Below, one piece after another: positions 324 to 14,008 of a stretch of 28,131 nt of DNA (position 1 is the stretch's first letter; each line of letters opens with the position of its first letter). A program made the position numbers and the translations under genes. A model generated the notes under the pieces. The model was not told where the DNA came from, did no database searches, and saw only the letters and a list, made by a program, of their open reading frames with translations. Source of the DNA: a virus; IMG/VR virus record IMGVR_UViG_3300026142_000016, positions 1-28,131 of that record. The stretch is one strand, 5' to 3'.

Positions 324-776
324 TCAAACATTGCTCACGCTCCCCTCTGGGGGTGTCAAAAATAGTTTTCTCTCTGCCTCGCGCCGTCTCTGCAGACCTG
401 GATTGACTTTCCCGTTTACTTTGTTCCATATCAAAATTGCCGCAGAAGCCGCTAGATATTGGTTCTCATTCAGGCTCCGCAGAACTGTCGAGCATGCAAA
501 GTTCCCACGCCCGATGTTGTAGACCAGAGACACAAGCGCATCGAACTGGTTCTGTGTCAGTGGAACTTGCACCAGATCATTGATTGCGGCCTCTGCCGTC
601 TTCAGGTCGTCAGCTAAGAACTGCTCGGCCTGAGTGATGTTGCAGGTATCGCCCATGTGCACGCCTGAGGTGTGACCGACTCCAATCGTCGGAATGCCGT
701 TTTGGTCCTTGTACGCAGAGGGGGAGAAGCCTTCAAACTCTTCAATGAGCTTGCGGCCAATCGGGGAGGTCGTCAC
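324..776 (-). CDS. Endolysin, GH24 lysozyme (T4/P22 type)
   Basis: This 150-residue protein should hydrolyse the MurNAc-GlcNAc bonds of peptidoglycan to release phage. It shows the GH24 signature EGFSPSAYKDQNGIPTIGVGH near the N-terminus. The catalytic triad is readable as E15, D24 and T30, with the same 9- and 6-residue spacing as Glu11/Asp20/Thr26 of T4 lysozyme. The length fits the family (about 145-165). There is no N-terminal signal or anchor, so it should need a holin to reach the cell wall. The start is GTG, overlapping the stop of the upstream gene in a GTGA junction, which suggests translational coupling to the depolymerase gene. The XhlA-like gene follows 33 bp later. Confidence 0.93.
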   Translation of the reverse strand: MTTSPIGRKLIEEFEGFSPSAYKDQNGIPTIGVGHTSGVHMGDTCNITQAEQFLADDLKTAEAAINDLVQVPLTQNQFDALVSLVYNIGRGNFACSTVLRSLNENQYLAASAAILIWNKVNGKVNPGLQRRREAERKLFLTPPEGSVSNV

Positions 777-3700
777 TGGATTGTGAACCCTCCTGTAATC
801 GTCATGCCGCCCGTCATGCTAGGTAGGCTCGCAGGGGTCGTGATGGTGTACGCCGCAGAGCCAACCGAAGAATCCAGGAAGCCAGATTCCGATGCGATTG
901 CCTTTAGCGTGAGCGAGGATGCGACAGATACAGCCGTGGAATAAGTCGAGCCGTGAGTGCAAGTACCTGCGCCGTTTGCAGTAGGGGTTGACCCGTCTGT
1001 GGTGTAGCAGAGCGTTGCCCCTGCGGTGGTGGAGGATAGGACAACGCTCTGAGTGCCGGTATACGTACCCGCCACAGGCAAGAAGGTGGGCGTTGCCGCA
1101 GTCGGGGTGCCTCCGGGCGAGATCACCACATTGCCCGTACCGGTTGCGGCGAAGGTCAGCGTTCCAGCGTTATCCGTAGTCGCAGAGGCCGGAGCGCCTG
1201 TGGCCGAGATGCTGTAGGTCGTGTTCGGGGTGAGGTCTGCAACGTAGTGGGTGGTCGCCCCGGAAGCCGGGTAAGTCACACCGGTAAACGTTGCCAGCGA
1301 GCGCATGAAGCAGCCCATCACGGTTTCGCCTGCAGTGAAAGCACAGTCGTATCCTTGGCCTGCCGTCGATTGCACCAGGGTCGGAGTGCCGGGAGTAAAG
1401 CCACTCGCTCCCCACTCCAGATCGTTCAGGAATTGTGCCGAGGTTGTGTTCGATGGTGGCGAGACTTTGAGAGAGGTATAAGGCTCCCAATCGTTCGGTT
1501 GGAAGTTGTCCAGATCGCCAGAGAAAGTTCCGCTCGATGCCCCGCTGATGACGGTGACGTTCCCGCCAGAGTTCATTGGGTTTGTCGCCGCGACAACGGC
1601 TCCGTTCCAATAGCAGCGGATGTTGGCCGAGCCGAGAGCTACGCCGGTTACTAGCCCCGTGCCGTTGACGGTCGCAACGCTCGGGGTGTCTGAGGTCCAC
1701 GCGGCACTCGCGCTCACATCTGCCGTCGATCCATCGGCGTAATGTAGCGTGCAAGTCTGCTGCATTGATGTTCCATTTTGCAGAAGCGCAAACGTGCCAG
1801 TCTGGAAGATGTATTGAGGGAGTTTGACGTTGGTTAGTGTTCCGCTCGCAGGCAGGAGAGTGGTGTAAGCCGCTTTCTGCGCTCCAGAGCGAGTCAGCCA
1901 CACAGCCTGGTTGCCGGTGATCGTCGGGGCTCCAGGGGTGTTGATCTGCACTGACTTTGGGTTGGAGGTCGTAGTCGTCGCGCGGTCGTAGGTGAGGATG
2001 TGATTCGAGCCACGCAGATAGAGGAAGTCCCGCGAGGAACCGAGGATGTCCAAATACCCGACGTACTCGTTGAATCCGCCCTTGGTGTTGATCTGTGCTG
2101 CTGCGTAGGTGGGCAACTCGGAATGAAGCAGCGGAGAGAAGTCCTGCTGTAGCCCGTGCCACCAGTCGCCACCTGAAGCGTAAGACCAGTAGTAAACGCA
2201 GGCAGGAGTGCCGCAAGAGCCTCCCGTGTTCGTGATGGAGGGCATGTTGGCTTGCGTGGCCGAACTCATCAGCGCGTTGTAGTCGTCGAACTCTGTACGG
2301 CCTTTGGTGATGTACTCATTGCCTGAGTAGACCTGGAATCTTCCACAGGTTGGGTGCTCGTGGTCGATTAGGGCGATGGCGCACCCAAAGTCTACGTAGG
2401 AGTTTGCATTCCCGCCTGTCCAGCCATTCCTCAGAATGAGGTGCTGGTTGTAGCTGCCGTTATAAAGATCCGTTGGAAGGGAAGGTCTCGGGTCTGCAGG
2501 TGGAGAGGTAACGGGATTGCCTGAAGGCAGGGCGAGGAAGAGATTGAACGCGACGCCTCCGGCAACGTCGTTCGAGAGTTCCGCCACAAGTCCGCAGTTG
2601 TCGGAGCAGCCCATCGCCGTTCCGTCAGGTCCGCCGAAAGCCGTATTGAGAATCGGCCACTCCAGTAGTGCGTTGCGGTCGGTGCGGCCCGTGTAGGTGT
2701 CAAACGTCAGGGTTGCCGCAGAGGTGCCAAACCAGCCAGGGAAGCGGTAGTACTGATTCGTGTCGCCAGAGTTGATGAATGCAAAGGCTGGAGAAGTCCC
2801 TGCGAGATTGCCGTTCTTCGGCGCCATGCCAGAGAGGAATTCAAGGTCAGCAACTCCATGCAAGTCCCACCAACTCGACGTTGCAAGGGACATCTGCGGC
2901 CCATAAGTCAGCGGATCGGTATACCCCGCAGTCCAGACCATATTCAGCGCGTCTCGGAGAGAATGAAGTTCCGCACCGTAGCCTGAACCTTCACTCGACT
3001 CTCCACCTCGGCCATCGCCAAAGCACGGAACCTGCCCTGGCCCTATCTCCGCGTCCCCCTGCCAGTTCGCGCACATCGGCTGCGTTGGGAGGTTGGCATA
3101 CTTCGCATTGAGGGCTTGCCACGAGACGTTCGGGTCTTCGAGGTGGACGTAATCGCCATAGAGATAGACCGAAGTGAAGTAGTTGAAGAAAGCGTGGCGA
3201 GAGCCGGCAGTCCAGTCTGGGCAGACGGTTGAACGCGAGGCCGAGCAGGTATTCGAAGGTGGAGGGTCGTCGGTGTTGTTATCGTCGAACGTTAGGGACA
3301 GTCCAGCCAATAGCGTGTTGCGCGCAAGAGCGTAGTTATTGCCCATCGTTCTGACGCGGCTCACAGCTCCTCCGAGAGCTGCGAGAGAGTTGTAGGTTGA
3401 CGTATCGTTTGTATTGCCGTTCGGCGGCAGCCAAGCCACTGCGCCAAACGTTCCGGTCACCGTATACCGGAGGGCGTTGTAGACATAGTTTCTGGCTACG
3501 GTGAGGTCTGCCGGGGATGTAATGGCTCCAGATCCGATCAGCCAATCTGTATCGACGGCATAGTAAACGTCATCCCCGCGCCATTCATCCTCACCCGGAG
3601 CCTGTGCCCCTGAGTTGAACTGGTTCATAAACCACACCCAGCCGTCATGGCCGTAGCAGTTCCAGTTGTAGGTTGGATCGGAAGGGTCTACCAGGGCCAT

Positions 3701-4273
3701 CAGGGCGTAGTAGAAGACGTGGCGCTGCATGAACCCATCTCCACTGCCGCTGGGGGTGTGGGTGCCTCCGCACGCCCCGCCAGTGCCCCAGCCAAAGAGA
3801 GCGTTATCGGTGTTGAACCACGAGATAGCCTGATTCTTGAGAGCTGTAGCTTGCGGGCTGCCCGCTGCAAACTTGGCCTGCAGCGCTGTCAGATCGGAGG
3901 CGCGGATGTAGAGTCTTGGGTGAGTTGTGGCAGGGGTCGGTGAGCCGGTGATCGTGATGGTCGATGTGCCCGCGACGGCTCCGTTCGCGTTCGACGTTGC
4001 CGTGAGGTGGTATGTGCCTGCGGTAGTCGTATAGAGAGCGGCGGTGCACGGCTCGTTGACCACGCAGGGGTTCGTGCCGACGATGGCGCCGCCATCAGGG
4101 GCAGTCCAGGTGACCGTCTTATCATTGACGCCATTCACGATCGCAGTGACGGTCTGATAGGACCCGCGAGGCGCTGTCACCGTGGATGGATACACGTAGA
4201 TCGACTGCCCATAGAGCCAGCCATTGCAGGCGTAGAGGGCGAAGAGCGCGGCGAGTTTGAGGAGGGCTTTCAC
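773..4273 (-). CDS. Secreted heparinase II/III-like polysaccharide depolymerase with Ig and chitobiase-C-like domains
   Basis: A 1166-residue protein. Residues 1-22 form a Sec signal peptide (short basic start, leucine/alanine core, predicted cut G22|Q23). An Ig-like segment lies at about 23-112. From residue 118, HPRLYIRASDLTAL starts a region typical of heparinase II/III and alginate-lyase-like proteins. An all-beta region with HEHPTCGRFQVYSGNEYI near 640 and NHILTYDRA near 760 fits the beta-sandwich half of that fold. A Big2-like Ig domain (WTSDTPSVATVN) lies near 860 and a chitobiase/hexosaminidase C-terminal-like domain (CYTTDGSTPT) near 1090. It probably degrades or binds host surface polysaccharide as a tail-associated or released depolymerase. 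The start is GTG, in a GTGA overlap with the 43-residue gene upstream. I cannot confirm catalytic residues. A signal peptide on a phage depolymerase is unusual. Confidence 0.7.
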   Translation of the reverse strand: MKALLKLAALFALYACNGWLYGQSIYVYPSTVTAPRGSYQTVTAIVNGVNDKTVTWTAPDGGAIVGTNPCVVNEPCTAALYTTTAGTYHLTATSNANGAVAGTSTITITGSPTPATTHPRLYIRASDLTALQAKFAAGSPQATALKNQAISWFNTDNALFGWGTGGACGGTHTPSGSGDGFMQRHVFYYALMALVDPSDPTYNWNCYGHDGWVWFMNQFNSGAQAPGEDEWRGDDVYYAVDTDWLIGSGAITSPADLTVARNYVYNALRYTVTGTFGAVAWLPPNGNTNDTSTYNSLAALGGAVSRVRTMGNNYALARNTLLAGLSLTFDDNNTDDPPPSNTCSASRSTVCPDWTAGSRHAFFNYFTSVYLYGDYVHLEDPNVSWQALNAKYANLPTQPMCANWQGDAEIGPGQVPCFGDGRGGESSEGSGYGAELHSLRDALNMVWTAGYTDPLTYGPQMSLATSSWWDLHGVADLEFLSGMAPKNGNLAGTSPAFAFINSGDTNQYYRFPGWFGTSAATLTFDTYTGRTDRNALLEWPILNTAFGGPDGTAMGCSDNCGLVAELSNDVAGGVAFNLFLALPSGNPVTSPPADPRPSLPTDLYNGSYNQHLILRNGWTGGNANSYVDFGCAIALIDHEHPTCGRFQVYSGNEYITKGRTEFDDYNALMSSATQANMPSITNTGGSCGTPACVYYWSYASGGDWWHGLQQDFSPLLHSELPTYAAAQINTKGGFNEYVGYLDILGSSRDFLYLRGSNHILTYDRATTTTSNPKSVQINTPGAPTITGNQAVWLTRSGAQKAAYTTLLPASGTLTNVKLPQYIFQTGTFALLQNGTSMQQTCTLHYADGSTADVSASAAWTSDTPSVATVNGTGLVTGVALGSANIRCYWNGAVVAATNPMNSGGNVTVISGASSGTFSGDLDNFQPNDWEPYTSLKVSPPSNTTSAQFLNDLEWGASGFTPGTPTLVQSTAGQGYDCAFTAGETVMGCFMRSLATFTGVTYPASGATTHYVADLTPNTTYSISATGAPASATTDNAGTLTFAATGTGNVVISPGGTPTAATPTFLPVAGTYTGTQSVVLSSTTAGATLCYTTDGSTPTANGAGTCTHGSTYSTAVSVASSLTLKAIASESGFLDSSVGSAAYTITTPASLPSMTGGMTITGGFTIQ

Positions 4274-4401
4274 AGTGCTGCCGCCTTGTACTTGAACTTC
4301 GGGTGAGACCGGATGTAGGCGTGGGCCTCACGCTGAGTCATGTAAGGCGAGAACATCAGGCCGTTGTTGATGAGCAGGATTTGGTAGTCGGTGAGTTTCA
4401 T
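4270..4401 (-). CDS. Small phage protein, 43 residues, unknown function
   Basis: A short ORF (MKLTDYQILLINNGLMFSPY...) between two secreted-protein genes. It is supported by coupling at both ends: its ATG overlaps the upstream stop as ATGA (4398-4401) and its TGA overlaps the depolymerase GTG start (4270-4273). The product is basic at the C-terminus (RSHPKFKYKAAAL), has no signal peptide and no convincing membrane helix. It is the only gene of the fibre cluster without a signal peptide. I recognise no family; the double overlap is the main evidence that it is real. Confidence 0.68.
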   Translation of the reverse strand: MKLTDYQILLINNGLMFSPYMTQREAHAYIRSHPKFKYKAAAL

Positions 4402-4730
4402 TTCGTCACCACCGTGCAGACCACGCCGGTAATCGTCTTGGTGCCGTCAGGATTCGCAATGACCGTAGAATCGGGTGCGAGGGCGCAGGTAAACTTCCCT
4501 GTAAGACCAGAGAGGGAGACTGACCCTGTGGCAGCCGCAGTCGTGCCGGTCACTGGAGCCTGATAGGCCGGAAAGGTAAACGAGCACGTTCCGCCGTTCC
4601 TCGGAATCTTGCAGGCCGCTGACTGACTTTGGATCGCAGCCGTACCTGTTACCGGGGCAGGAGGCACGGAGGCAGTCTGGGCAAACCATGGAGGGCAGAA
4701 CAGGAGCAATAGAAGGAGTAGCCTTTTCAT
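4398..4730 (-). CDS. Small secreted fibre-cluster protein, 110 residues
   Basis: It begins MKRLLLLLLLFCPPWF with a predicted signal-peptidase cut at A17|Q18. The mature part is Thr/Ala/Pro-rich with four cysteines and short beta-like repeats, such as PVTGTAAIQ and PVTGTTAAATG, around residues 26-70. The start ATG lies 6 bp after the stop of the 1047-residue fibre gene, with an AGAG-type ribosome-binding stretch over that stop. The stop overlaps the next gene (ATGA). The composition suggests an exported or virion-surface beta protein, perhaps a fibre cap or chaperone. No family is recognised. Confidence 0.68.
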   Translation of the reverse strand: MKRLLLLLLLFCPPWFAQTASVPPAPVTGTAAIQSQSAACKIPRNGGTCSFTFPAYQAPVTGTTAAATGSVSLSGLTGKFTCALAPDSTVIANPDGTKTITGVVCTVVTK

Positions 4731-4736
4731 TGGTCT

Positions 4737-7700
4737 CTATAGCCTGGCGATGCAGATGTAATTCACCTGGTCAGTTCCGGTGCCGTGGATTGTGAGGACT
4801 CCGGCAGTGGCAGACACCTGAACGGCGGCTACTGCGGTCACGTCAGACGCGGTGCATACTGGGGAGTGGGCATAGGTGGTAATGAAGGTGTAAGTGGCCA
4901 CGCCGCCAGAGAGAGTCAGGGTGCCCGCAAGATCGGAATTGGCGGTGGTCGTGGTGATGTGGTTAGGGAAAAGGTTGAAGGAGTCCAACTCTAATGCACT
5001 GAGAACGGCGGTATTATCGTTGGCGGTCCCGTTACCGAAATGGATAGTACCTGCCGAGTCCCGCCACATGCAGGTGTCCGCAGACGAAGGTGTCGGCGAA
5101 GGGTTGGCGATGTTGGTGACATTGGCCCAGCAGTATCCTCGGTTCGCGGCGGCGATTTCTCCTATTCCATCGTTGATCCAGAGGAAATTGGTGCCGCTGC
5201 CCAGGTCGCCGCCGTTGTTGAATATGAAATTTCCACCGGAGTTCGCAGTCGATGGAACAACGAAGTTCTGGGTTCCGGGCGTCAGTCCCCAGCCATACCG
5301 ATGCGCCGCTCCTCCGTCAAACATCGTTAGGTCAAAGTTGCCGTAGTTCGTCCCGAAGTTGATAGTGTGGTTCAGGCCTCCGCTGCCGCCGATGGTCACG
5401 TCTCCGTTTGCGACGAGGGAGCCGACTTGTAGACCCCGGTCCGCCGTCACGACAAAGGCGCTGCGGGCATTACCCTGACTGGTCACACACAGGTCGCTCG
5501 ATACCCCGGTGAACGGATTCAGGTTGCACGGGGTGAGGAAAGTTGGGGTAAGTCCTCCACCGGCAGGAAAATCAAACTCCACGCCCGCATGGTTACTAGC
5601 TCCATCTCCCGTCCCGGATACCAAGCCGGTGTGGGCGCTAAGAATCCCGGTGCTCCAAAACGAATTGCCGAAGATGTCGTGATCGAAGTGGAATCCGTCG
5701 GTCGCAATCGAGAAGATGCCCCAGCTCGGGTCGCGCCAGATGTTGTAGGAAGTCTGCCCCGGCTGGTGCGCGCTGAAGTAGAAGCCATTGGTCAGGGGCG
5801 TATAACTCGCCTGCAACGTGCTGTCGAATACACCCACCTGCTGCAGGAACCATGGCTCAGAGAGCGGCCCACCAAACGGCGTGTACGAAGAAGTCGGCTC
5901 GGCATTCTGGCCTATGATCGCAGTCGCCAGGCCGTTCGCCCCGTGCCCTGCAATAGCCGAACGGAATCCCAGCAGTTGCGCATTGGAGACAGAGGGCTGG
6001 TCCAGCAGCGCCGTCAAATCCAGCCCAATGATGTTCTGCGATTCATAGTGCGGAGACTGTAGGGCATCGCCAACCGAGAAGTACGAGTTAGGCGAAAGCG
6101 TGGGCAGCGATTCGCCTGGAGTCCACGCCGAGCCTAATGGGTTGGTTGTATCAACCTTCAAAATGCGAGCAGTGGCATAGAGGTGAATGCCCGAGCTGGC
6201 CCCACCATCAAATGTCTCCCAGGCATATCCAGGGCTCGGCCACTCCAATGCTTTGTCCGCCCCATAGTTTTCGAATGTAGCCAGCACGTGCGAGCCATCA
6301 ATGGAGATTGCCGGCAGTGCAATAGGGGCAAGTTGCGCATCCATCGACAGCGCCATGCAGTCGCCCTTCGCAATCAGGATCGACGTGTTCGGCATAGACA
6401 GGGGAATGGTGATGGTCTGGGTGGGAGAAGTGCCGCTCACCGTCGAGATAATGTTCTGCTCGGTGAAATTCGACCCGATGACGCAGGCATGGTCTCCAGC
6501 CGCAAACGTACCCGCACCAGCTCCAAGGGTAAACGTCTGCGACACGGGAGCATCCCACGAGGTATTCGGCGTCAGGTTCGCGCTGATAGCCGTGCCCCAA
6601 GCCGTAGCCGCCGGTGGCGCAAAGTCGGTAGAGATCGATGATACCCAACTCACACCGGCCCCGCCGGGGGTCATTCCAGTTGCATGGCCGGACCCTCGCA
6701 CCACCGAGAGATCGACCATCCATCCACCGCTAACCGGGGCGCAGGACTGATTCTCCAGAGCGCTGCAGCCTCCGTCGCTGGTGAACGTCGGCGCGGTGTT
6801 GGTGCCGCCCGTAATCGTCCCAGTCCAGGTGTTGATGACCTCCCCTATACGCCAGAAATTCTTGCAGCCTTCGTCGCTTGGATAAGCCACGCCCGTCTGG
6901 CAGTTGTGGTCGGACTGCTGCCCTTGGAAGTCTCCAATCCCAAACCCGGAGGTATTGCTTGACCAAAGTTGCTTGATACCGGAGGTGACGAAGGCTCCAT
7001 TATTCGAATCGGCAAAGAGCTGCGAGCTGCGGCTCTCAAACCCTCCATATCCAGAGTTCCCGCCGTAGACATTATGGGTAAGGACGAACGCCGCCAGATT
7101 AGAAGTTGCGCCGGGTAGCCCGTGCATGGACCCGTCATCAGCACTATCTACGGCGAAGCACCCCCATTTAGTGAATGTTGGTCCCGTCAGGATGCAGTTC
7201 GGAGCCGCCACTGTCATTTGGAATGGGTTCTGCACTCCGCTGATACTGCTGGCCTCAAAGAAGTGCGAACTTATCGTGCTCGCCACAGAGGAAGTAGCCA
7301 GAGGGACAAAGTTTAGGGTCTGACCCGAGAGAGCCCCGCTCCCCAAGCAATTGAAACTTGCGCCATTAGCCGAATACTTCAGGCAATGCGACACAGAATC
7401 GGCATAGAGAATGTCGTGCCCTGCTGCCGCTGTGGCTGCGGTACCTTCTAAGGCATTGAGCGTCCCACCCTGCCCAGTACCGGTGTTGACCGAGAGCGGA
7501 TGGGTGATAGTCGTAGTCGTGCCGTCATCGCAAACAGGAAGAGAGGAGGTTGAGGTCGTTCCCGATGCGGCTTTGGGTGCGCAGCCTGCAGTTTGCCCGG
7601 AAAGTGTTCCCGATCCCGCAGGTACGCAGGAATTCGACTGCGGCGAATAGACGTATCCCGGCGTCGTGCAGCTTGGAGCACTCTGTAAGAGATTGCCAAT

Positions 7701-7880
7701 GTCGGAAGAGGTGCCCGGACGCGAAGTTGTGGAGCTGGTGCCATAAACAACCGCATTTGTCGGCAAAGTGGCCCCTGATCCCGCGGTTGTGCCTACTTGA
7801 ACGCCTTTCCCAAGCTGAACTTGGGCGAGGGCAAGCGCAGAACCTCCCAGCAACGCGATAATGGCGAGCAGTCTTTTCAT
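4737..7880 (-). CDS. Large tail-fibre/receptor-binding protein with signal peptide
   Basis: A 1047-residue protein. I chose the ATG at 7880 because AAGAGGAA sits at ideal distance before it, just after the upstream stop (7891-7893). A longer in-frame reading from 7916 would overlap the upstream gene. Residues 1-19 are a signal peptide (MKRLLAIIALLGGSALALA|QVQ). The rest is low in charge, rich in Gly/Ser/Thr and Asn, and looks like a trimeric beta-structured fibre, with LSGQT repeats near the N-terminal third. The C-terminal ~65 residues (DLAGTLTLSGG ... HSPVCTASD ... GTDQVNYICIARL) resemble a terminal domain seen on other phage fibre-like proteins. It probably recognises host surface glycans. 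No intramolecular chaperone motif was recognised. Confidence 0.75.
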   Translation of the reverse strand: MKRLLAIIALLGGSALALAQVQLGKGVQVGTTAGSGATLPTNAVVYGTSSTTSRPGTSSDIGNLLQSAPSCTTPGYVYSPQSNSCVPAGSGTLSGQTAGCAPKAASGTTSTSSLPVCDDGTTTTITHPLSVNTGTGQGGTLNALEGTAATAAAGHDILYADSVSHCLKYSANGASFNCLGSGALSGQTLNFVPLATSSVASTISSHFFEASSISGVQNPFQMTVAAPNCILTGPTFTKWGCFAVDSADDGSMHGLPGATSNLAAFVLTHNVYGGNSGYGGFESRSSQLFADSNNGAFVTSGIKQLWSSNTSGFGIGDFQGQQSDHNCQTGVAYPSDEGCKNFWRIGEVINTWTGTITGGTNTAPTFTSDGGCSALENQSCAPVSGGWMVDLSVVRGSGHATGMTPGGAGVSWVSSISTDFAPPAATAWGTAISANLTPNTSWDAPVSQTFTLGAGAGTFAAGDHACVIGSNFTEQNIISTVSGTSPTQTITIPLSMPNTSILIAKGDCMALSMDAQLAPIALPAISIDGSHVLATFENYGADKALEWPSPGYAWETFDGGASSGIHLYATARILKVDTTNPLGSAWTPGESLPTLSPNSYFSVGDALQSPHYESQNIIGLDLTALLDQPSVSNAQLLGFRSAIAGHGANGLATAIIGQNAEPTSSYTPFGGPLSEPWFLQQVGVFDSTLQASYTPLTNGFYFSAHQPGQTSYNIWRDPSWGIFSIATDGFHFDHDIFGNSFWSTGILSAHTGLVSGTGDGASNHAGVEFDFPAGGGLTPTFLTPCNLNPFTGVSSDLCVTSQGNARSAFVVTADRGLQVGSLVANGDVTIGGSGGLNHTINFGTNYGNFDLTMFDGGAAHRYGWGLTPGTQNFVVPSTANSGGNFIFNNGGDLGSGTNFLWINDGIGEIAAANRGYCWANVTNIANPSPTPSSADTCMWRDSAGTIHFGNGTANDNTAVLSALELDSFNLFPNHITTTTANSDLAGTLTLSGGVATYTFITTYAHSPVCTASDVTAVAAVQVSATAGVLTIHGTGTDQVNYICIARL

Positions 7881-7890
7881 TGATTTCCTC

Positions 7891-9087
7891 TTAGTGGCCG
7901 AAGCAAACCCAGCCAACCGGCATGGAATTGGTGAAGTGAACGGAAGTCTGGGAAGTGTCGAGCGAGACTGTGATGTGCCCTATATCGAAGGCGGGGATCA
8001 GAGTAGCGACCATGTTCCAACCGCTTGTGGGGTTCTCCGATTGCACGTCCGCTGTGCAGCTAAACACTGCGTTCGGAAAGGTCAAAGGGAGAGCAGTAGA
8101 AGGCGAGCTGCAATGACTCGCCCCACATGCACTGACGGTAATGACGCCCCACTCGACAATGACTCCCCCTGGAAGAGAGGCCCAGCCATTCGTCGAGAGT
8201 CCTGAGCCTGCAGTCGGTAGAGCTATGCCGGTGTCCGTGGTGTTTCCAGAGGCGTCGAATACCGCAATATCTCCCGAGGTCGTCGTGCCAGTAGAGTGCT
8301 GGACCTTTAGCCCTGTGCCCTGGTTGTCTGTGATGGCCGTTCCGGAGGCTACTTGCACCGAGGTAGGGTTTATCGCTCCAGGAAGGGCTACATAAGCGGT
8401 CGTGGCTACTTTGGCGGAGTTGTCACTTGCAGGCTGAGTCGTCGCCGTGATCCCGTCAGGAATCGAGCTTGAGCCTGCGATATTGCTTCCCGCTGCGGGG
8501 TAGATAGCGAGCTGATTGATGGTCCCTGCAGCAATCGCCCCAGCCCCTAGGGAGGCCAAAGCCGTTGCGGGAGTCGTAGTATCGAACGTCCATGATGTCG
8601 GTGTTCCTAAGGCCCCAATCGTGACGTAATGCGCACCCAAAGTGCCGATGTTCAGCGTGTGGTTGGTGGTGTTGATGGTTATCGAGGAGTCGCAGGTAAG
8701 TCCACTTGCGGAAGGGTTTGCAATCTGCACCGCAGAGGCCGGGGAGCATGGGAATAAGTTCCCTGCGTTGACCTGATCCACCGACCAGATGGTCGATCCT
8801 GACTGGTCTTTCAGAACAAACTTGTAGGAATTGTTGCCAACCCAGATATTCGCCCCGCCTGCAGGGTCAAGGATGATAGGGTTGGTGTTCATACTGGTGC
8901 CGCTGGCATCCGTATAGGTCGCTAACGGGGTAGTTGTCCCAGCGACGAACGTCTGCAATGTGCAATGAGCGCATGGGGCGCCTGCACCATTCACAAAAGT
9001 CACATGCGGGTTCTGGACTGGGGAAACAGGCACCTGCGCCCCCAACGCGCAACACATCGCAGCCGCAATGAGCAGCAAACGTTTCAT
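7891..9087 (-). CDS. Tail-fibre protein with virion-binding-type N-terminus and signal peptide
   Basis: A 398-residue protein. Residues 1-17 are a signal peptide (MKRLLLIAAAMCCALGA|Q). They are followed by a region common at the N-terminus of podovirus fibres and spikes (VTFVNGAGAPC, TLQTFVAGTTTPLATYTDASG, then NIWVGNNSYKFVLKDQSG), which in other phages attaches the fibre to the virion. The middle is Ala/Ser/Thr-rich. The C-terminus (VIVEWGVITV ... LPLTFPNAVFSC ... PVGWVCFGH) resembles the gp53-like fibre-tip domain. The start is ATG with AAAGG upstream. It is first in the fibre cluster and next to the parS-like intergenic region, so its promoter may lie there. The signal peptide in front of a virion-attachment domain is the odd feature. 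Confidence 0.8.
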   Translation of the reverse strand: MKRLLLIAAAMCCALGAQVPVSPVQNPHVTFVNGAGAPCAHCTLQTFVAGTTTPLATYTDASGTSMNTNPIILDPAGGANIWVGNNSYKFVLKDQSGSTIWSVDQVNAGNLFPCSPASAVQIANPSASGLTCDSSITINTTNHTLNIGTLGAHYVTIGALGTPTSWTFDTTTPATALASLGAGAIAAGTINQLAIYPAAGSNIAGSSSIPDGITATTQPASDNSAKVATTAYVALPGAINPTSVQVASGTAITDNQGTGLKVQHSTGTTTSGDIAVFDASGNTTDTGIALPTAGSGLSTNGWASLPGGVIVEWGVITVSACGASHCSSPSTALPLTFPNAVFSCTADVQSENPTSGWNMVATLIPAFDIGHITVSLDTSQTSVHFTNSMPVGWVCFGH

Positions 9088-9334
9088 TTAGTGACCTTTC
9101 TGGGTAAAATGCGCTGGTTACTGCTGATTCCGCTGGTGTTTCTAGGGCAATGGCTCAGACGGAAGATTCGCGGCTGGCCTTACAGGTAACCTTTCGCCTT
9201 TTGTTCCACGTGGAACATTCGCGTGTAGCGGTGTACACTGCTTGCCCGTACCGTTGCTGCTGGATTGGGAAATCTAGCCGCCCCAAGGGTGCCAAGCTCA
9301 CTGGTGCAACGGGACGGACCTGCTTGGAGGCCAA
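9088..9334. other. Intergenic control region carrying a parS-like palindrome
   Basis: With the adjoining small plus-strand gene this is the only break of more than 300 bp in the structural block (9088-9495). It holds the 16-bp palindrome at 9202-9217, a GTGTACAC palindrome at 9231-9238, and a loose inverted repeat CCAAGC/GCTTGG (9292-9297, 9322-9327). A weak plus-strand promoter can be drawn (TGGAAC at 9211-9216, 17-bp spacer, TACACT at 9234-9239) that would overlap the parS-like site. I see no clear promoter for the minus-strand fibre genes. A 26-codon plus-strand reading frame (9109-9189) lacks a ribosome-binding site and is not called. Confidence 0.5.
9202..9217. promoter_or_regulatory. 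parS-like ParB-binding palindrome
   Basis: The sequence TGTTCCACGTGGAACA is a perfect 16-bp palindrome. It matches the chromosomal parS consensus TGTTNCACGTGAAACA at all but one position, and that difference (GGAACA for GAAACA) makes it symmetric; such GTTCCACGTGGAAC forms are used as parS in some bacteria. ParB binds such sites and spreads or clamps along DNA for segregation. No parA or parB gene is in the window, so the site could use host ParB or a ParB encoded elsewhere on the phage. It lies between the fibre and ejection-protein genes. Confidence 0.7.
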
Positions 9335-9499
9335 ATGCTTGCGATATTCGCGGTGCTAGTGCTGTGCGGCTTTGTCCTATTTCTGGCAGACTTCATCCAG
9401 GGATTCATCGTGGACGCTAGGACTTCGGCTGCGGTGGGGCTGACTAGTCTGGGCGTTTGCGCGTTACTCTTGGTTGGCTTCTTCGCGTTTTGTCTTTAG
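9335..9499 (+). CDS. Small two-helix membrane protein, 54 residues
   Basis: This plus-strand ORF has a strong ribosome-binding site (GGAGG, 5 nt before ATG). It encodes a very hydrophobic 54-residue product with two predicted membrane helices (about residues 2-18 and 34-53) joined by a short loop with D28/R30. It ends by a 3-nt convergent overlap with the stop of the minus-strand 606-residue gene. Among the phage structural genes it is the only call on the opposite strand. Size and topology would suit a holin, antiholin, superinfection-exclusion or other moron membrane protein. There is no family match I can name. Confidence 0.6.
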   Translation: MLAIFAVLVLCGFVLFLADFIQGFIVDARTSAAVGLTSLGVCALLLVGFFAFCL

Positions 9500-11316
9500 T
9501 TACTGAGAATTCTTCGCGCCTGCAAAGCAAGGCTTTTCATAACGGCAGAGCCTGGCTTCATGCTGCTAGCCCTCAACAAGAGCTGCTGACCTTCTGGTTT
9601 CGCCTTGAGTGCTGATAAATCCTGTGAACTTAGCCCCTCGGTCGCTAAATTGGTCGCACCCTTATCGGTCCAGACCTGTGTCGCTGGCTGGCGTGCCTGA
9701 ATCCTAGCCTTGAGGACATCCGCTGCAGTGGGGTCAGGGGTATATTCTGGACCGCTGATCCCCGTCGAATTGCCAGTCACAGGAGTGCGAGCCATAGAAG
9801 GCGGGGGAACGCCTGTAGATGTCGGCTGGGGAAGATTCAAAGGCTGAGGCCGGATACTTCTGAGTGCTGTATTGACTTGCCGGTTACCAATGATTTCCGG
9901 GCCGCCCTGTGCGGGTTGCAGTATCAGACGGTCTACTAGACCGGCCTTGCTTCCGATAGAACCAACCGTCGTTCCGCCCATGGCCTGCTTGCCTGCTGCA
10001 GCGGTATCCGTATTAGCAGACATCTGAGCCTCATCCGCGATAGTGCGGAGCTTTCCGGCCTGCTGGCGCACAGCAGCAATATCCGAAGGCTGTAGCCCTG
10101 TTGCCTGCGCGAGTTTGTTGTGCAGAATGTTTGTAAGTGCTTGCTTTTCTGCAATCAAATCAGCATCGCTGACGTTAGCTGCACTGGTCTGGGACGCCAG
10201 CCCCTTGCGATAGTTGGGGTTCAATTCCTGATTGATCGTATTGATTCGGTCATTGATCGACCCAAGTGTGGCGTTTGGGCCTTCGCCTACCGTAGCACCT
10301 CTATAGTTCGCCGGGACAGAGGTGATCTGCTTGGCGTTTGGTCCAAGCAAGGCATCGTCAAAGTGAGCCTGTACCGCATCAGCCGCCTGCTTCGCGGCAT
10401 TGGCGAAATCAACTTTAGAGTTGATCGGAATGTTATTTTTCTGCGCATAATCGACGATTGTTCCCGCTTCATCCGTCGCCGCCCGAATGAAACTAGGTGC
10501 TGCCTGAGGGGAAACTACCAGAGCCTTCGCTAGATTGCGGGCCGCCATGGTCTGCTGTGTTGCCGACTGCGTTGAAGGATAGAAGCGCGATTTTGCAGCG
10601 GCAGCCGCATCGGATACTGTGCCAGGAATAGACCGCATCGCATTTATGCCTGCCTGCACTGGCGCGGGATTAGGAATTACAGGCCGCCCCGGAACGGTCG
10701 CATCTGCCACTCCCAAGACCGCTGGCGCAGCCTGTGCGGAAGCGCCGATCAGTGTGCCGAGCGAACCGGGATTAGTGAGCGTGTCGCCTACTTGAGAGAG
10801 GTAGGACTCTCCTGGTTTAGGGGTGGGCTGTTGGTCTGCCAGTTTATCCATCGCAGGCCCGACTATAGGAATGGCCGTCACTGCGTGCTGGACGACGCCA
10901 GCGGTGTTGCCCTGCTTGCCTGCCTGATAAGCTTGCTTGACCTCGCTCCCGGACCTCATAAGCCCTTGCGTGAGGCCGTCGATTGCGGTCTGCCCCGTAA
11001 TTCCTTCGAGGAGCTGCTGGATGGGATGGGCGCGGAATTCATCTAGCTTTTGCTTGGCGGCTTCAGCAGTAATGCCTAATTGAGAGCCTAGCGAGTGCCA
11101 GAGGCCTTCAGGCGGAGCCTCGCTTTGTGCTGTCACAGGCTTGAAGCCTGCTTTCAGTGCGTCCTGCTGGCGGTCCATAGGGATATACCCCGCCTTGCCA
11201 TCCGGCGAGGTCATCTCTACGGCCTGCTTGAAACCTTTGGCTATGGCCGCCTGAACCTGTTCTTGCGGAACTTCACCCGAGGTGCCGTCAGGGGCGAGCA
11301 TGGGAACTGTCGGCAT
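9496..11316 (-). CDS. Internal virion/DNA-ejection protein (P22 gp16 position)
   Basis: A 606-residue protein in the place of P22 gp16, the last of three consecutive genes that in P22-like phages encode the ejection proteins forming the DNA channel. The N-terminus has two copies of a short module (residues ~8-30 and ~37-59) of form xPDGxxGxxPxxxxxxAxxxGFK. The rest is Ala/Gln-rich and helical. A mildly hydrophobic Ala/Gly/Pro stretch (GTLIGASAQAAPAVLGVADA) near residue 190 could touch the membrane. The start ATG overlaps the upstream stop (TAATG) with GGAAAGG before it. Sequence alone does not prove ejection function; position and composition do most of the work. Confidence 0.65.
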   Translation of the reverse strand: MPTVPMLAPDGTSGEVPQEQVQAAIAKGFKQAVEMTSPDGKAGYIPMDRQQDALKAGFKPVTAQSEAPPEGLWHSLGSQLGITAEAAKQKLDEFRAHPIQQLLEGITGQTAIDGLTQGLMRSGSEVKQAYQAGKQGNTAGVVQHAVTAIPIVGPAMDKLADQQPTPKPGESYLSQVGDTLTNPGSLGTLIGASAQAAPAVLGVADATVPGRPVIPNPAPVQAGINAMRSIPGTVSDAAAAAKSRFYPSTQSATQQTMAARNLAKALVVSPQAAPSFIRAATDEAGTIVDYAQKNNIPINSKVDFANAAKQAADAVQAHFDDALLGPNAKQITSVPANYRGATVGEGPNATLGSINDRINTINQELNPNYRKGLASQTSAANVSDADLIAEKQALTNILHNKLAQATGLQPSDIAAVRQQAGKLRTIADEAQMSANTDTAAAGKQAMGGTTVGSIGSKAGLVDRLILQPAQGGPEIIGNRQVNTALRSIRPQPLNLPQPTSTGVPPPSMARTPVTGNSTGISGPEYTPDPTAADVLKARIQARQPATQVWTDKGATNLATEGLSSQDLSALKAKPEGQQLLLRASSMKPGSAVMKSLALQARRILSN

Positions 11317-12761
11317 TAGTGAGCCTTTCCCCCAAACTGCGCGAATGGATCAGCGGTATTCCCGCCGTTTTGATCCCCGAAGTTCGGCTTACCCTGCTGG
11401 CCTTGGTTGTACTGTGCCTTGAGGTTGGCAGCCTTGGAATTCAATAACAGCCGGTAGGTGGCGATGGCACCCTTGAGCTGGATCGGGCTTTGTACGCGGC
11501 TGAAAGTGCTATCTACCTTGGCAATTTCCGGATCTGTAGCACCCGAAGCCTTCAGCGTCGCCGCTACTTCGCCAGCCATCGCGTTCTTAGCCGCCTCAAA
11601 GTTAGTCGGAGCGGGGTTTCCTGTCTGCTGTGCCCACGCCTGCGCAGCTTTGTTGAATACCTGAATATTCGAGTTATTGAGATCGGTCGCCAGTTTATCG
11701 AGCAAATTCAAGTGTTGTGTTGCGGTATTGAACGCAGTGAGCTGCTGGCCGCCCTTGCCGCTTGTGAAGTACTTCTCATTGGCTTGAACAGTCTTCACGT
11801 CGCCGCTGTTCGGAGCTTCTTTGCCAATTGCATCCTTGCGGGTCACAAAGACCGTGTTTCCTGGATTGTTTGGGTCGGCTACTGCCTGTGGCATCTGCAG
11901 ATAAGTGGAGGCCCTGACTTCTGCAGGCTGAATCTTCGTCTCTTTCGTGTACTCCTTGAACGCCGCCAAACGGTTCTGTGCGGTGTCAGGCAGCCCATTA
12001 GCTTTCAGATAGTCCGACTCGAACTTGTCTACATCGGTACTCCCGCCGCGAGCCACGTTCATGTTCTTTTCGGCTGCGGTCGCTGTTTCCGAAGCCGTCT
12101 GCGCCTGCTTTTGAGCCGCATCCATCTGCTGCGACTCAGACATCAGACCCTTTTGCATTAGGGAAAGCTTCTGACGAATCGCTGCGGGATCGCCGGATTG
12201 AGCAATCTGCTGGGCCATCTGAACATGCGGAGGGTCCAGCAAGCCTTTCTGCGCCAAATCCTGAGCCGTCTGGACCAATCCTTGCGCCAGTTGATCGTCC
12301 GGCATATTGGAAACATTGCCCAACGCCCCGGCGATCATGTCGTTTTTGCCCTTCATCGTTTCGAGATTCTTCGCACCGGTGGTCGCGTCATCCGCAGCGA
12401 TCTTGGAATAGGTCTGCTGCTGCTCCAAGACTTTGCTCTTTAGCCCCATGACGGCTTGGGCCGAGGCACCATTCTTGATAACCAGCGGAATGAGCGAATT
12501 TACGTCTTTACCATCCCAATCGTGCATGGCCGCTGTCATGGCCTGCTGGTCCTTCAGCGCCTGTTGCTGCTGTTGGATACCCAACTGCCCAGACTGAATG
12601 CTCTGCTGGGCCTGCTGCTGCTGCAGGGGTGCCATAGCGGCGCGCTGCTGATATTCCTGCTGCGCATTGCGCAAAGCGGCGAGCTGCCCGAACTTCTGCA
12701 GGATGTCAGGCTGCTGCGGGGTCTTTAGATCGAGCGCCGGTAATGCCATCAGACTGCCCAT
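11316..12761 (-). CDS. Gln-rich internal virion protein (P22 gp20 position)
   Basis: A 481-residue protein, strongly helical. Its first ~75 residues are glutamine-rich (QQQQAQQSIQ and QQQQQALKDQQ), followed by coiled-coil-like segments up to ~240. Such Gln/Ala-rich proteins between the gp7- and gp16-like genes are typical ejection proteins of P22-like podoviruses. The first codon used is ATG at 12761. A second ATG four codons in (MALPALDL) is an alternative start. The next gene downstream begins within its stop codon, so the two are probably translated together. Confidence 0.65.
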   Translation of the reverse strand: MGSLMALPALDLKTPQQPDILQKFGQLAALRNAQQEYQQRAAMAPLQQQQAQQSIQSGQLGIQQQQQALKDQQAMTAAMHDWDGKDVNSLIPLVIKNGASAQAVMGLKSKVLEQQQTYSKIAADDATTGAKNLETMKGKNDMIAGALGNVSNMPDDQLAQGLVQTAQDLAQKGLLDPPHVQMAQQIAQSGDPAAIRQKLSLMQKGLMSESQQMDAAQKQAQTASETATAAEKNMNVARGGSTDVDKFESDYLKANGLPDTAQNRLAAFKEYTKETKIQPAEVRASTYLQMPQAVADPNNPGNTVFVTRKDAIGKEAPNSGDVKTVQANEKYFTSGKGGQQLTAFNTATQHLNLLDKLATDLNNSNIQVFNKAAQAWAQQTGNPAPTNFEAAKNAMAGEVAATLKASGATDPEIAKVDSTFSRVQSPIQLKGAIATYRLLLNSKAANLKAQYNQGQQGKPNFGDQNGGNTADPFAQFGGKAH

Positions 12762-13652
12762 TTAGCCTCCAAGTTCGTTCGGGATGCCGAAGAGTCCGCC
12801 GCCACTGCCATACCCGCTGCTCATGCCGCGCAGCAGAGCTAGATTCGTCAGATTCCCTCCGATTCCGCTGATGCCCTGATTCCATGCATTCGCTCCGCCG
12901 ACATAGCCCGAAGCCGTCGCAGCAGCAGCATTATTCAACTGCTGGCCCTGCTGGGCACCAGATGTCAGGAGATTGTTGGTCACGTTATTCGACGCAGCCT
13001 GCCCCTCTTGACCTAATTGAGCTGCCGTGGTCTGTCCGACTCCTGAAAGTGCAGCAAGCCGGTTGTACTGGTTCGCCTGATTGGTGTTGTAGGTGTTGTA
13101 ATTCGTGTCAAACGTGTTCAGCGCCCTGTTGTAGACGTTCGAGTATTCGTTGGAGGCATAGTCCTCCCCAAACGCGTCCAGCGCCTTGGCGGTGCCTCCG
13201 GTGAGCACTGAGCCCCTGGCGGCTGCTGAATGCTGTAAGGCATCCGTACCCAACTTCAGTCTCGCCTGGAAGCCGGGGTCGTTTTGCTCGGTCAGTGCAG
13301 TGGGAGCGGTGAACGTTCCGGAATAAGGAGTGGTCAGTGACCCTTGGCCTACTCCTGATCCGTTTGCTGTCCCGCCGATCCCTAGACCGTACTGCAGAGC
13401 GTTGAGACCACTCTGTCCTGCCTGCAACCATGGAGCCTGTTGCTGTTGCGAGGTCTCGTACTGCTGCTTTTGGAAGTCGAGCGCGTCTTGTGAGTCCTGA
13501 TGCTGAAGTTGGGCCGCGCTTTGGGCTGCCTGAGCCTGAGTAGACGCAGCATTTCCGGCAGCATTGGCACTGATGGCCGATCCTGCGATGCTCCCGGCTG
13601 CCCCGATTCCCCCGATAATCCCCAGCGTCGTTGCTGAAATCGCTCCGCTCAT
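12762..13652 (-). CDS. DNA-transfer/ejection virion protein (P22 gp7 position)
   Basis: A 296-residue protein starting with a Gly/Ala-rich hydrophobic stretch (residues ~10-30, LGIIGGIGAAGSIAGSAISA). This is followed by a Gln-rich coiled coil (to ~75) and a conserved-looking block around 125-175 (DPGFQARLKLGTDALQHSAA, then ARGSVLTGGTAKAL and FGEDYASNEYSNVYNRAL). That block is familiar from podovirus proteins annotated as DNA-transfer or minor virion proteins. The C-terminus is Gly/Asn-rich. The ATG overlaps the upstream cupin gene as ATGA. It probably forms part of the channel ejected ahead of the genome. Confidence 0.72.
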   Translation of the reverse strand: MSGAISATTLGIIGGIGAAGSIAGSAISANAAGNAASTQAQAAQSAAQLQHQDSQDALDFQKQQYETSQQQQAPWLQAGQSGLNALQYGLGIGGTANGSGVGQGSLTTPYSGTFTAPTALTEQNDPGFQARLKLGTDALQHSAAARGSVLTGGTAKALDAFGEDYASNEYSNVYNRALNTFDTNYNTYNTNQANQYNRLAALSGVGQTTAAQLGQEGQAASNNVTNNLLTSGAQQGQQLNNAAAATASGYVGGANAWNQGISGIGGNLTNLALLRGMSSGYGSGGGLFGIPNELGG

Positions 13653-14008
13653 CGTCTAGTCACCAAGGCTTCATATTCCCCTGTAAATTCCTCTTCTGCC
13701 TGCTCCAAAGTCTCTGCATCTGTGCGAAAGGTCATGGTGATATGCGTCTCCTCCATGCCCACGAAAATCTGCTTTCTGCCTGCTTTTGCAGGGATGACGT
13801 TATAGCCCTCAAGCTCTATCCAGCCGTCGCCAGTGAAAACACGGCATTTCCCCGAGACAATCAACAGCGTAGGAACCTTGATCTGGGCACCCATCAGGAC
13901 TATCTCTGGGCCAATCGTCACTGTTCTGACATACATTCCCGCATGCAAAAAGTGCTCGGTATGCACTTCCTCTTGCGGGAGGGTAAGCATGTGCTCCTGC
14001 ACCTGCAT
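13649..14008 (-). CDS. Cupin-like phage protein
   Basis: A 119-residue protein of alternating beta strands with a cupin-like pattern: HAGMYVRTVTIGPEIVLMGAQIK, then LLIVSGKCRVFTGDGWIELEGYNVIPAKAGRKQIFVG. Small proteins of this look occur beside tail and ejection genes in other podoviruses, commonly near an acetyltransferase as here. Role unknown; metal ligands are not obvious, so it may be structural. It sits 8 bp after the GNAT gene and overlaps the next gene by 4 bp (ATGA). Confidence 0.6.
   Translation of the reverse strand: MQVQEHMLTLPQEEVHTEHFLHAGMYVRTVTIGPEIVLMGAQIKVPTLLIVSGKCRVFTGDGWIELEGYNVIPAKAGRKQIFVGMEETHITMTFRTDAETLEQAEEEFTGEYEALVTRR

Follow-up and report, generated by a model that had tools for sequence, protein, structure and literature searches.

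Signal peptides on phage enzymes are already known, as are bacterial tailspike- and fibre-like proteins that carry export signals. The gp40 esterase of Xanthomonas phage PBR31 has an N-terminal signal peptide and resembles tail-associated hydrolases, but it is a single protein, discussed beside spanins (PMC10975493); WceF of Pantoea stewartii is a tailspike-like glycan enzyme with an export signal (PMC7949094), and the mosaic adhesive trimer fibres of Bdellovibrio are phage-fibre-like proteins that stand behind signal peptides (PMC10769870). The 28,131-base IMG/VR virus record IMGVR_UViG_3300026142_000016, analyzed over its whole length and referred to here as the window, differs from these systems in that four consecutive late genes begin with Sec-type signal peptides. 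One of them, P0001, encodes a heparinase-like protein, and another, P0007, a tail spike/fibre protein in which the signal peptide directly precedes a head-binding domain. The best joint explanation, to which we would assign a probability of about 0.6, is that P0001 is a Sec-exported, multidomain heparinase II/III-like enzyme that forms part of a four-gene exported module at positions 773-9087. Compared with this module, WceF is the product of a bacterial gene, with a Tat signal and a beta-helix fold (PMC7949094), and the Bdellovibrio fibres are bacterial and surface-displayed, with no particle-mounting domain mentioned in the accessible part of that source (PMC10769870). A first-pass annotation of P0001 had overlooked the signal peptides on the neighbouring tail genes, and their presence shifts the question from an odd enzyme to an exported tail module.

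Signal peptides were called with a home-made rule that asks for a basic start, a hydrophobic core of nine residues and a cut at small residues, and that selected 4 of the 21 window genes, all of them adjacent (773-9087). The predicted cut reads A-Q or G-Q in all four, and the n-, h- and c-regions with a cleavage site that the rule detects match those of Sec/signal peptidase I substrates. After the head block, the minus-strand order is as follows:

7891..9087, minus strand: P0007, tail spike/fibre protein of 398 residues with signal peptide, head-binding domain and Gp53-like C-terminus
4737..7880, minus strand: large signal-peptide protein that looks like a fibre by eye and from its position, read from an internal ATG (open reading frame 4737-7916)
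4398..4730, minus strand: small gene, 110-residue protein with signal peptide by the home-made rule (MKRLLLLLLLFCPPWFA, then a cut before Q)
773..4273, minus strand: P0001, predicted exported heparinase-like protein of 1166 residues (open reading frame, domain scans, relatives in five further viral contigs)
324..776, minus strand: endolysin (phage lysozyme; Pfam E 3.7e-46; the same stretch is identical in L002)

P0001 thus adjoins the tail spike/fibre block, in agreement with the first-pass placement in a fibre cluster, and the start of the endolysin gene overlaps its stop by 4 bases (GTGA). The position of P0001 at the end of the fibre block, together with this overlap, suggests late expression.

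The key neighbour of P0001 in the module is P0007, the relevant parts of which are:

9037..9087, minus strand: signal peptide, residues 1-17, predicted cut before Gln18 (home-made rule)
8752..9033, minus strand: tailspike head-binding domain, residues 19-112, as in podophage tailspike N-termini (residues 47-112 match PDB 7eeq, E 2.1e-5)
7897..8175, minus strand: Gp53-like tail-fibre C-terminus, residues 305-397 (Pfam PF21882 at 31.1 bits; cut-off 24.9)

An AGAAAGG ribosome site precedes the P0007 ATG; a start at Met11 was ruled out, as a ribosome site is absent there and a good one lies before Met1. Residues 19 to about 112 match the N-termini of phage proteins in 29 of 30 records, several of which are annotated as tail spikes or fibres, and the remaining record matches the C-terminus only. 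In this region P0007 is like the head-binding domain of PDB 7eeq, which we take to be from cyanophage Pam1, and like podophage tailspikes such as that of phage PBR31. It is unlike those tailspikes in having 17 residues of signal peptide in front, whereas the PBR31 tailspike has none by the home-made rule. Eighteen relatives of the domain were examined, comprising 8 from IMG/VR and 10 from named phages (10 of the 29 N-terminus-matching records), and all 18 have a start codon at the equivalent of P0007 residues 16-20 and no signal peptide by the rule. Two pairs (L043/L045 and L047/L048) are equal in length and score and look like the same protein twice, so that the relatives number about 16 distinct proteins; in L057 and L059 a second possible start lies about four residues on, and in L056 and L059, which have earlier in-frame starts, the annotated start was taken. 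Since the relatives begin at 16-20 and the predicted P0007 cut falls after residue 17, the signal peptide is simply added ahead of a particle-mounting domain. When the other signal-peptide phage loci examined were searched with a profile of the 19 domains, none of them yielded a further copy, and the exact pairing is accordingly seen in the window's virus alone; in other phages, signal peptides stand on other fibre-type proteins. Within the literature searched (titles and abstract openings, without subscription papers or preprints), no report was found of signal peptides as a feature of phage tail fibres or tailspikes, nor of one that precedes the head-binding domain of a phage protein in a series of signal-peptide genes, which does not prove that none exists.

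Runs of signal-peptide genes recur in other phages. A stricter count over open reading frames picked mechanically, in which a call by the rule had to be joined by [AGS]Q close to the cut, gave 5/25 in the window with a longest run of four, 13/75 in five heparinase-family loci and 44/236 in 22 CHB_HEX_C loci, as against 0/103 in the 18 loci of the head-binding-domain relatives and 0/94 in the first 50 kb each of phages Tunturi_3 and Tunturi_4. The counts exclude duplicate loci of the window's contig, near-duplicates (L010, L024, L026-L028, L032), repeats (L038, L061-L066) and plasmid loci (L060, L067-L074), and a 47-locus count additionally excludes L075-L077. The motif [AGS]Q at positions 14-34 is present in 56 of 70 signal-peptide genes and in 53 of 199 others, which fits a cleavage site. 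Signal-peptide genes also adjoin the P0001 relatives in L005, L036 and L039. Among the virus contigs, L022 (2572-12321) holds six plus-strand open reading frames called with signal peptides, four of them consecutive with A/G/S-Q cuts, and L016 (6840-16287) holds five successive plus-strand ones.

A comparable block is found in a cultured phage of Acidobacteriota, the Tunturiibacter phage Tunturi_2 (PP885685), where the rule called 5/15 genes: gp12, gp13 (a tail fiber by annotation), gp14 (pectin lyase), gp16 and gp17 (virion structural). The gp12-gp17 block is like the window in its signal-peptide genes, its CHB_HEX_C domain, a Big-type C-terminus, a pectin-lyase-like protein and its richness in cysteine; it is unlike the window in carrying beta-helix/pectin-lyase-like proteins, and P0001 finds a match there through its CHB_HEX_C part alone. 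Neither ‘signal peptide’ nor ‘mass spectrometry’ occurs in the main text of the paper on the Tunturi phages (PMC11924767). In the Tunturi_3 and Tunturi_4 stretches the rule called 1/40 genes, the endolysin, and the first 50 kb of Tunturi_3, which hold its annotated tail fibres, are without a signal-peptide block, whereas Tunturi_2 has one. As Tunturi_2 and Tunturi_3 were isolated on the same host strain, the difference ties the trait to the phage rather than to its host. The CHB_HEX_C similarity to Tunturiibacter phages is a mere hint at the host of the window's virus. A host assignment from the glutamine after the cut, by way of the Bacteroidetes Q-rule, was dropped, the main text of PMC5837995 being without Acidobacteria.

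Also significant is the cysteine content of the module. Counted from residue 26 on, the four window genes have 52 cysteines in 2633 residues (1.97%) against 17 in 3886 (0.44%) for 12 chosen other late genes, and in Tunturi_2 the five signal-peptide genes have 84 in 4087 residues against 11 in 1877 for six others (Mann-Whitney p 1.2e-4 for both phages pooled by gene). This comparison used 12 of 17 window and 6 of 10 Tunturi_2 non-signal genes, so that terminases, endolysins, gp12's and later small genes are not all included. Over the 47 loci, the median is 2.15% for the 70 signal-peptide genes and 0.88% for the 199 others (p = 2e-14, genes within a contig not being independent). The window head genes, unlike the exported ones, are not cysteine-rich, and the five annotated tail fibres of Tunturi_3 hold 9 cysteines in 2537 residues. 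The enrichment fits folding in an oxidising compartment.

The reading frame of P0001 is bounded exactly by 773-4273, begins with GTG and encodes 21 cysteines, one of them inside the signal peptide. IMG/VR contig 3300005616_000115 encodes the same protein at 100% identity over residues 1-1166; this second contig has flanking open reading frames of equal lengths and reaches beyond the window's left end, and it may not be an independent sampling. The parts of P0001 are:

4208..4273, minus strand: signal peptide of 22 residues (1-22), with the cut predicted ahead of Gln23 (MKALLKLAALFALYACNGWLYG, then Q; sequence and home-made rule)
3944..4207, minus strand: N-terminal Ig-like beta domain, about residues 23-110 (AlphaFold strands, pLDDT about 60-74)
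2504..3925, minus strand: helical catalytic part, a possible alpha/alpha toroid, about residues 117-590 (conservation in six relatives; low-confidence helices; weak HepB match at 111-138)
3332-3346, minus strand: MGNNY motif, residues 310-314, in the helical catalytic part
2978-3007, minus strand: GGESSEGSGY motif, residues 423-432, in the helical catalytic part
1838..2506, minus strand: strand-rich part, about residues 590-812 (profile matches to heparinase II and to eight heparinase II/III-family proteins)
2336-2368, minus strand: catalytic-histidine-like motif I-D-H-E-H-x3-G-R-F, residues 636-646, in the strand-rich part
1616..1783, minus strand: Big_2 Ig-like domain, residues 831-886 (Pfam E 4.9e-9)
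863..1078, minus strand: CHB_HEX_C_1 domain, residues 1066-1137 (Pfam E 1.8e-13; 50.6 bits, cut-off 22)

The first-pass description of a signal-bearing protein with Ig and chitobiase-C-like domains is therefore upheld, by the signal-peptide-like start, by the Big_2 and CHB_HEX_C_1 matches in Pfam (the latter overlapped by an Fn3_assoc match, E 6.9e-9) and by the modeled Ig-like N-terminus, which is the best-scoring part of the full-length AlphaFold model and has no Pfam match over residues 23-110 or so. Gln23 aligns with the post-cleavage glutamine of L036, L039, L037 and L005, and a relative in another viral contig, with 41% pairwise identity, likewise starts with a signal peptide. A near-lipobox (LYAC, residues 13-16) is not kept in the four aligned relatives, and a lipoprotein reading was set aside.

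For the catalytic part, a heparinase-like reading is supported at the level of remote homology. P0001 shares with heparinase II and the II/III superfamily a histidine motif, which lies at the start of the putative beta-sandwich part and retains DHEH in the window copy, the order of three motifs (partly by eye) and an HPRLY-like N-terminal stretch; it differs from heparinase II in its catalytic part of about 700 residues, in the added Ig-like, Big_2 and CHB_HEX_C domains and in being phage-encoded. When a profile of the six relatives was compared with the sequences of all solved structures, heparinase II was matched four times at E 1 (PDB 2fuq, 2fut, 3e7j and 3e80), over the histidine motif (profile consensus IDHEAQTSGRFDVYSNGE against LNHQHQDAGAFQIYYKGP). 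A second profile, built from eight plasmid-borne heparinase II/III and alginate-lyase-like proteins (plasmid locus L068 was left out of alignment A9), aligns to the same motif with P 0.01 for the whole catalytic part and P 0.0024 for the strand-rich part. In a calibration with 200 column-shuffled versions of the family alignment, 191 of which gave a scored match, none was as good (0/200): the observed scores were 31.7 and 32.1 for the whole and strand-rich parts, respectively, and the best shuffles 24.4 and 23.4. GGE.SEGS.Y aligns onto DGGW.EG..Y of the heparinase II/III family, although with P 0.54 this is not significant alone, and the counterpart of MGNNY is, by eye, MGHNWW in two family members. 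MGNNY, E428-G429, Y432 and H638 are invariant across the six sequences. A low-confidence AlphaFold model of the catalytic part has seventeen helices in the first 490 residues, followed mostly by strands with two helices, an order that the full-length model shares, that suits the proposed toroid and sandwich better than a beta-helix spike and that, at such confidence, proves nothing. We judge it quite probable that the fold is heparinase-like, and somewhat less so, while still favored, that the window copy is enzymatically active. A heparinase-like lyase in a phage is new as a variant within a known kind of enzyme, and the most likely role of P0001, as far as its sequence can indicate, would be that of a lyase of acidic polysaccharide in the surface coat of the host.

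Several observations weigh against this picture. With regard to the enzyme, no curated heparinase model in Pfam or NCBIfam reaches its cut-off for P0001, and the first-pass label ‘heparinase-like’ is kept here as a likeness rather than as an assignment to the family. The catalytic part has no Pfam family at E up to 1; the catalytic parts of the six relatives, at E up to 10, gave a chance-level ComK match in one as their sole match; PF07940 (Hepar_II_III_C) matched nothing in the window record, although it did match in 3 of 14 control genomes; and NCBIfam HepB matches residues 111-138 only (E 0.029), a match not seen again with the six trimmed catalytic parts. The search of structure sequences returned six sequences in all up to E 10, among which an unrelated spike-peptide construct (E 0.33) outscored heparinase II and another unrelated protein stood at E 2.6, and the HHalign probabilities for the family-profile matches are low (4% and 12%). 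The structural check proposed at first pass, for a toroid and a sandwich, left the fold invisible: two AlphaFold runs (full length and catalytic part, six sequences each) reached a mean pLDDT of 34, too poor for a fold. Structural comparison with the poor model placed alginate lyases and heparinase II at ranks 2, 4, 5, 7 and 13 (5 of the top 13) with Z of 3.3-5.5, which is within chance and below the tool's trust level, and rank 1 is a mitoribosomal chain. With regard to export, the signal peptides were called by the home-made rule and not by SignalP; this rule was probably wrong about the Tunturi_3 endolysin, called an internal start of the ejection-region open reading frame 11316-12761 and missed a signal peptide of L040 that is visible only by eye. 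The stricter window count includes one open reading frame beyond the four block genes, runs of two or more occur in only 3/5 heparinase-family and 10/22 CHB_HEX_C loci, and the rate in the latter is biased upward, since those loci were picked by a domain typical of secreted proteins.

The distribution of P0001 relatives lends no support to the first-pass suggestion that the protein derives from a gene for carbohydrate use in the host. The catalytic part was found by peptide-pattern scans in five further viral contigs, with identities to P0001 in the six-sequence alignment of 48% (L036), 42% (L039), 39% (L005, equal to L038), 37% (L040) and 36% (L037, truncated), and a later peptide-pattern scan of viral contigs added no relative. 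Two scans of one genome per species over 84,980 species, which required short conserved peptides, gave 31 and 63 pattern hits and no confirmed relative; a plasmid scan gave an Ig-domain match only and a scan of phage records with P0001 gave CHB_HEX_C and Ig matches only, both within limited sensitivity. In the scans made here, the heparinase-like family is found only in viral contigs, and a host-gene origin is thus unsupported, as far as scans that rely on short peptides can tell. In L040 the lyase-like gene (8533-12270) has an orientation opposite to that of most of its neighbours, so that it is not part of a fibre run there, and its end looks Fn3-like by eye.

Taken as an exported adhesin/depolymerase module, which is the best reading of 773-9087 from its sequence, the four genes would act late in infection, when the host Sec machinery and signal peptidase I would export their products and the cysteines of the exported proteins would form disulfides outside the cytoplasm. 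The coupled endolysin would then lyse the cell and free enzyme and fibres together with the particles, and the enzyme, probably anchored to glycan by its Ig and CHB_HEX_C domains, may strip surface polysaccharide, both setting progeny loose from the dead cell's coat and opening the coats of neighbouring cells. Two versions may be envisaged, in which the products either act as free enzymes and adhesins or become attached to the particle after leaving the cytoplasm, and the head-binding domain favors the second for P0007. In its full form the second version, compatible with the explanation preferred here and a stronger form of it, would place the disulfide-linked folding of the fibres, and possibly of the enzyme, in the periplasm, and their mounting on particles through the head-binding domain only at lysis. 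The head-binding domain directly behind the signal peptide, the start of 18/18 relatives where P0007 cleavage is predicted (A17/Q18) and the disulfide-type cysteine content speak for it, and P22 tailspikes are known to join finished particles in vitro. Against it stand the lack of a head-binding domain match for P0001 in Pfam, PHROG or other family scans, the demands of efficient joining post-lysis, at dilution, and the fact that no virion proteomics was found for any of these phages, ‘mass spectrometry’ being absent from the Tunturi main text as noted above. Tailed-phage virions are held to assemble in the cytoplasm, and the broader proposition, that some soil podoviruses, with a cultured example on Acidobacteriota, send an entire adsorption module of spikes, fibres and depolymerases through Sec, let it fold and form disulfides beyond the cytoplasm and finish virion assembly in the periplasm or post-lysis, by a two-compartment route, is put forward as tentatively as the mounting of these fibres at lysis itself: both are possible, and both remain doubtful. 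A signal peptide before a particle-mounting domain and a like block in a cultured phage make such a two-compartment route testable, and if the parts stay free, phages still devote a large late block to exported cysteine-rich adhesins and polysaccharide enzymes. In either case the exported module is relevant to the action of phages on exopolysaccharide in soil.

Other explanations dispense with catalysis, with cleavage or with a role in infection. P0001 might have no enzymatic activity and be a large exported adhesin built on a lyase scaffold that has degenerated: where the window has D-H-E-H, L005 has N-H-A-S and L037 and L040 have N-H-E-A, so that catalysis may not persist in all relatives, and no curated lyase model matches. 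The window copy nevertheless retains D-H-E-H, GGESSEGSGY and MGNNY, and the residues noted above as invariant in all six sequences point the same way, which makes this alternative rather improbable. Less probable again is that the hydrophobic starts are retained as membrane anchors or assembly tags and that, as in other phages, the proteins enter the virion from the cytoplasm, which the fibre-type domains, the conventional phage gene order of the window (PHROG matches) and the near-lipobox of P0001 would allow; the excess of [AGS]Q in signal-peptide genes fits cleavage instead, the cysteine enrichment points to an oxidising compartment and the near-lipobox is missing in the relatives. Secreted carbohydrate-active enzymes of soil viruses are known, and the bacterial-type architecture of P0001, with accessory domains common in secreted proteins, would suit an auxiliary enzyme that releases sugars for the host during infection and is unrelated to adsorption or release. 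The place of P0001 at the end of the fibre block, its overlap with the endolysin gene and a neighbour that is a spike/fibre protein argue against such a nutritional role, which we likewise consider unlikely. The exported lyase within an adhesin/depolymerase module is therefore retained as the preferred explanation.

Around the P0001 relatives, a signal-peptide protein of L036 (6365-8668) adjoins the lyase-like gene and has a GDSL-esterase match (E 1.2e-6, just under the Pfam cut-off); the neighbouring signal-peptide proteins of that contig have GDSL-esterase and CBM5/12 matches, both below cut-off in Pfam, and would make surface-coat processing the simplest common purpose. In L005 (2976-4478) the same exported block holds a signal-peptide protein that is alpha/beta-hydrolase-like by eye (GSMGG motif) with no Pfam match. 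Overall, Pfam matches were obtained for 3 of 8 signal-peptide neighbours, all three below cut-off, and PHROG matches for 2 of 10, namely the L036 protein (tail fibre families) and Tunturi_2 gp17 (a major-tail-protein family, over the C-terminal Ig-like part).

C-terminal stretches of the last exported enzymes look alike, possibly as a docking or secretion tag: TGGMTITGGFTIQ, LQGVILKGVTVN, LTGTISITGSAVIR and MQGVKVQGARIQ, located in the same order at:

776-815 of the window
10390-10427 of L005
12060-12105 of L039
3900-3941 of L003

A motif written post hoc from these stretches occurs in 4/58 signal-peptide C-termini, 6/205 others (two of the six, in L005 and L039, are signal-peptide genes that the rule had mis-sorted) and 5/1358 internal stretches; it misses gp17 and L036 and is kept as a lead only.

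Within the module, the large fibre-like protein, read from the internal ATG at 7880, begins with the signal peptide MKRLLAIIALLGGSALALA followed by a cut before Q, and has no match in Pfam, PHROG, NCBIfam or PDB. The 110-residue protein, between the fibre-like and lyase-like genes, is cysteine-rich (4.5%) with a strong signal peptide; it has only a sub-threshold, chance-level match in Pfam and none in PHROG. The remainder of the window includes a head and packaging block with terminase, portal, scaffold, coat, head closure and DNA ejection families (family scans). Several records matching the portal carry the annotation ‘phage P22 like portal protein’, and its best matches (best 25 of 199 records) are proteobacterial or uncultured phages at about 27-30% identity. 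Upstream, in the head-to-tail region (13649-14008), lies a 119-residue protein without a signal peptide that matches short tail fibre/adhesin PHROGs (E 2.6e-16).

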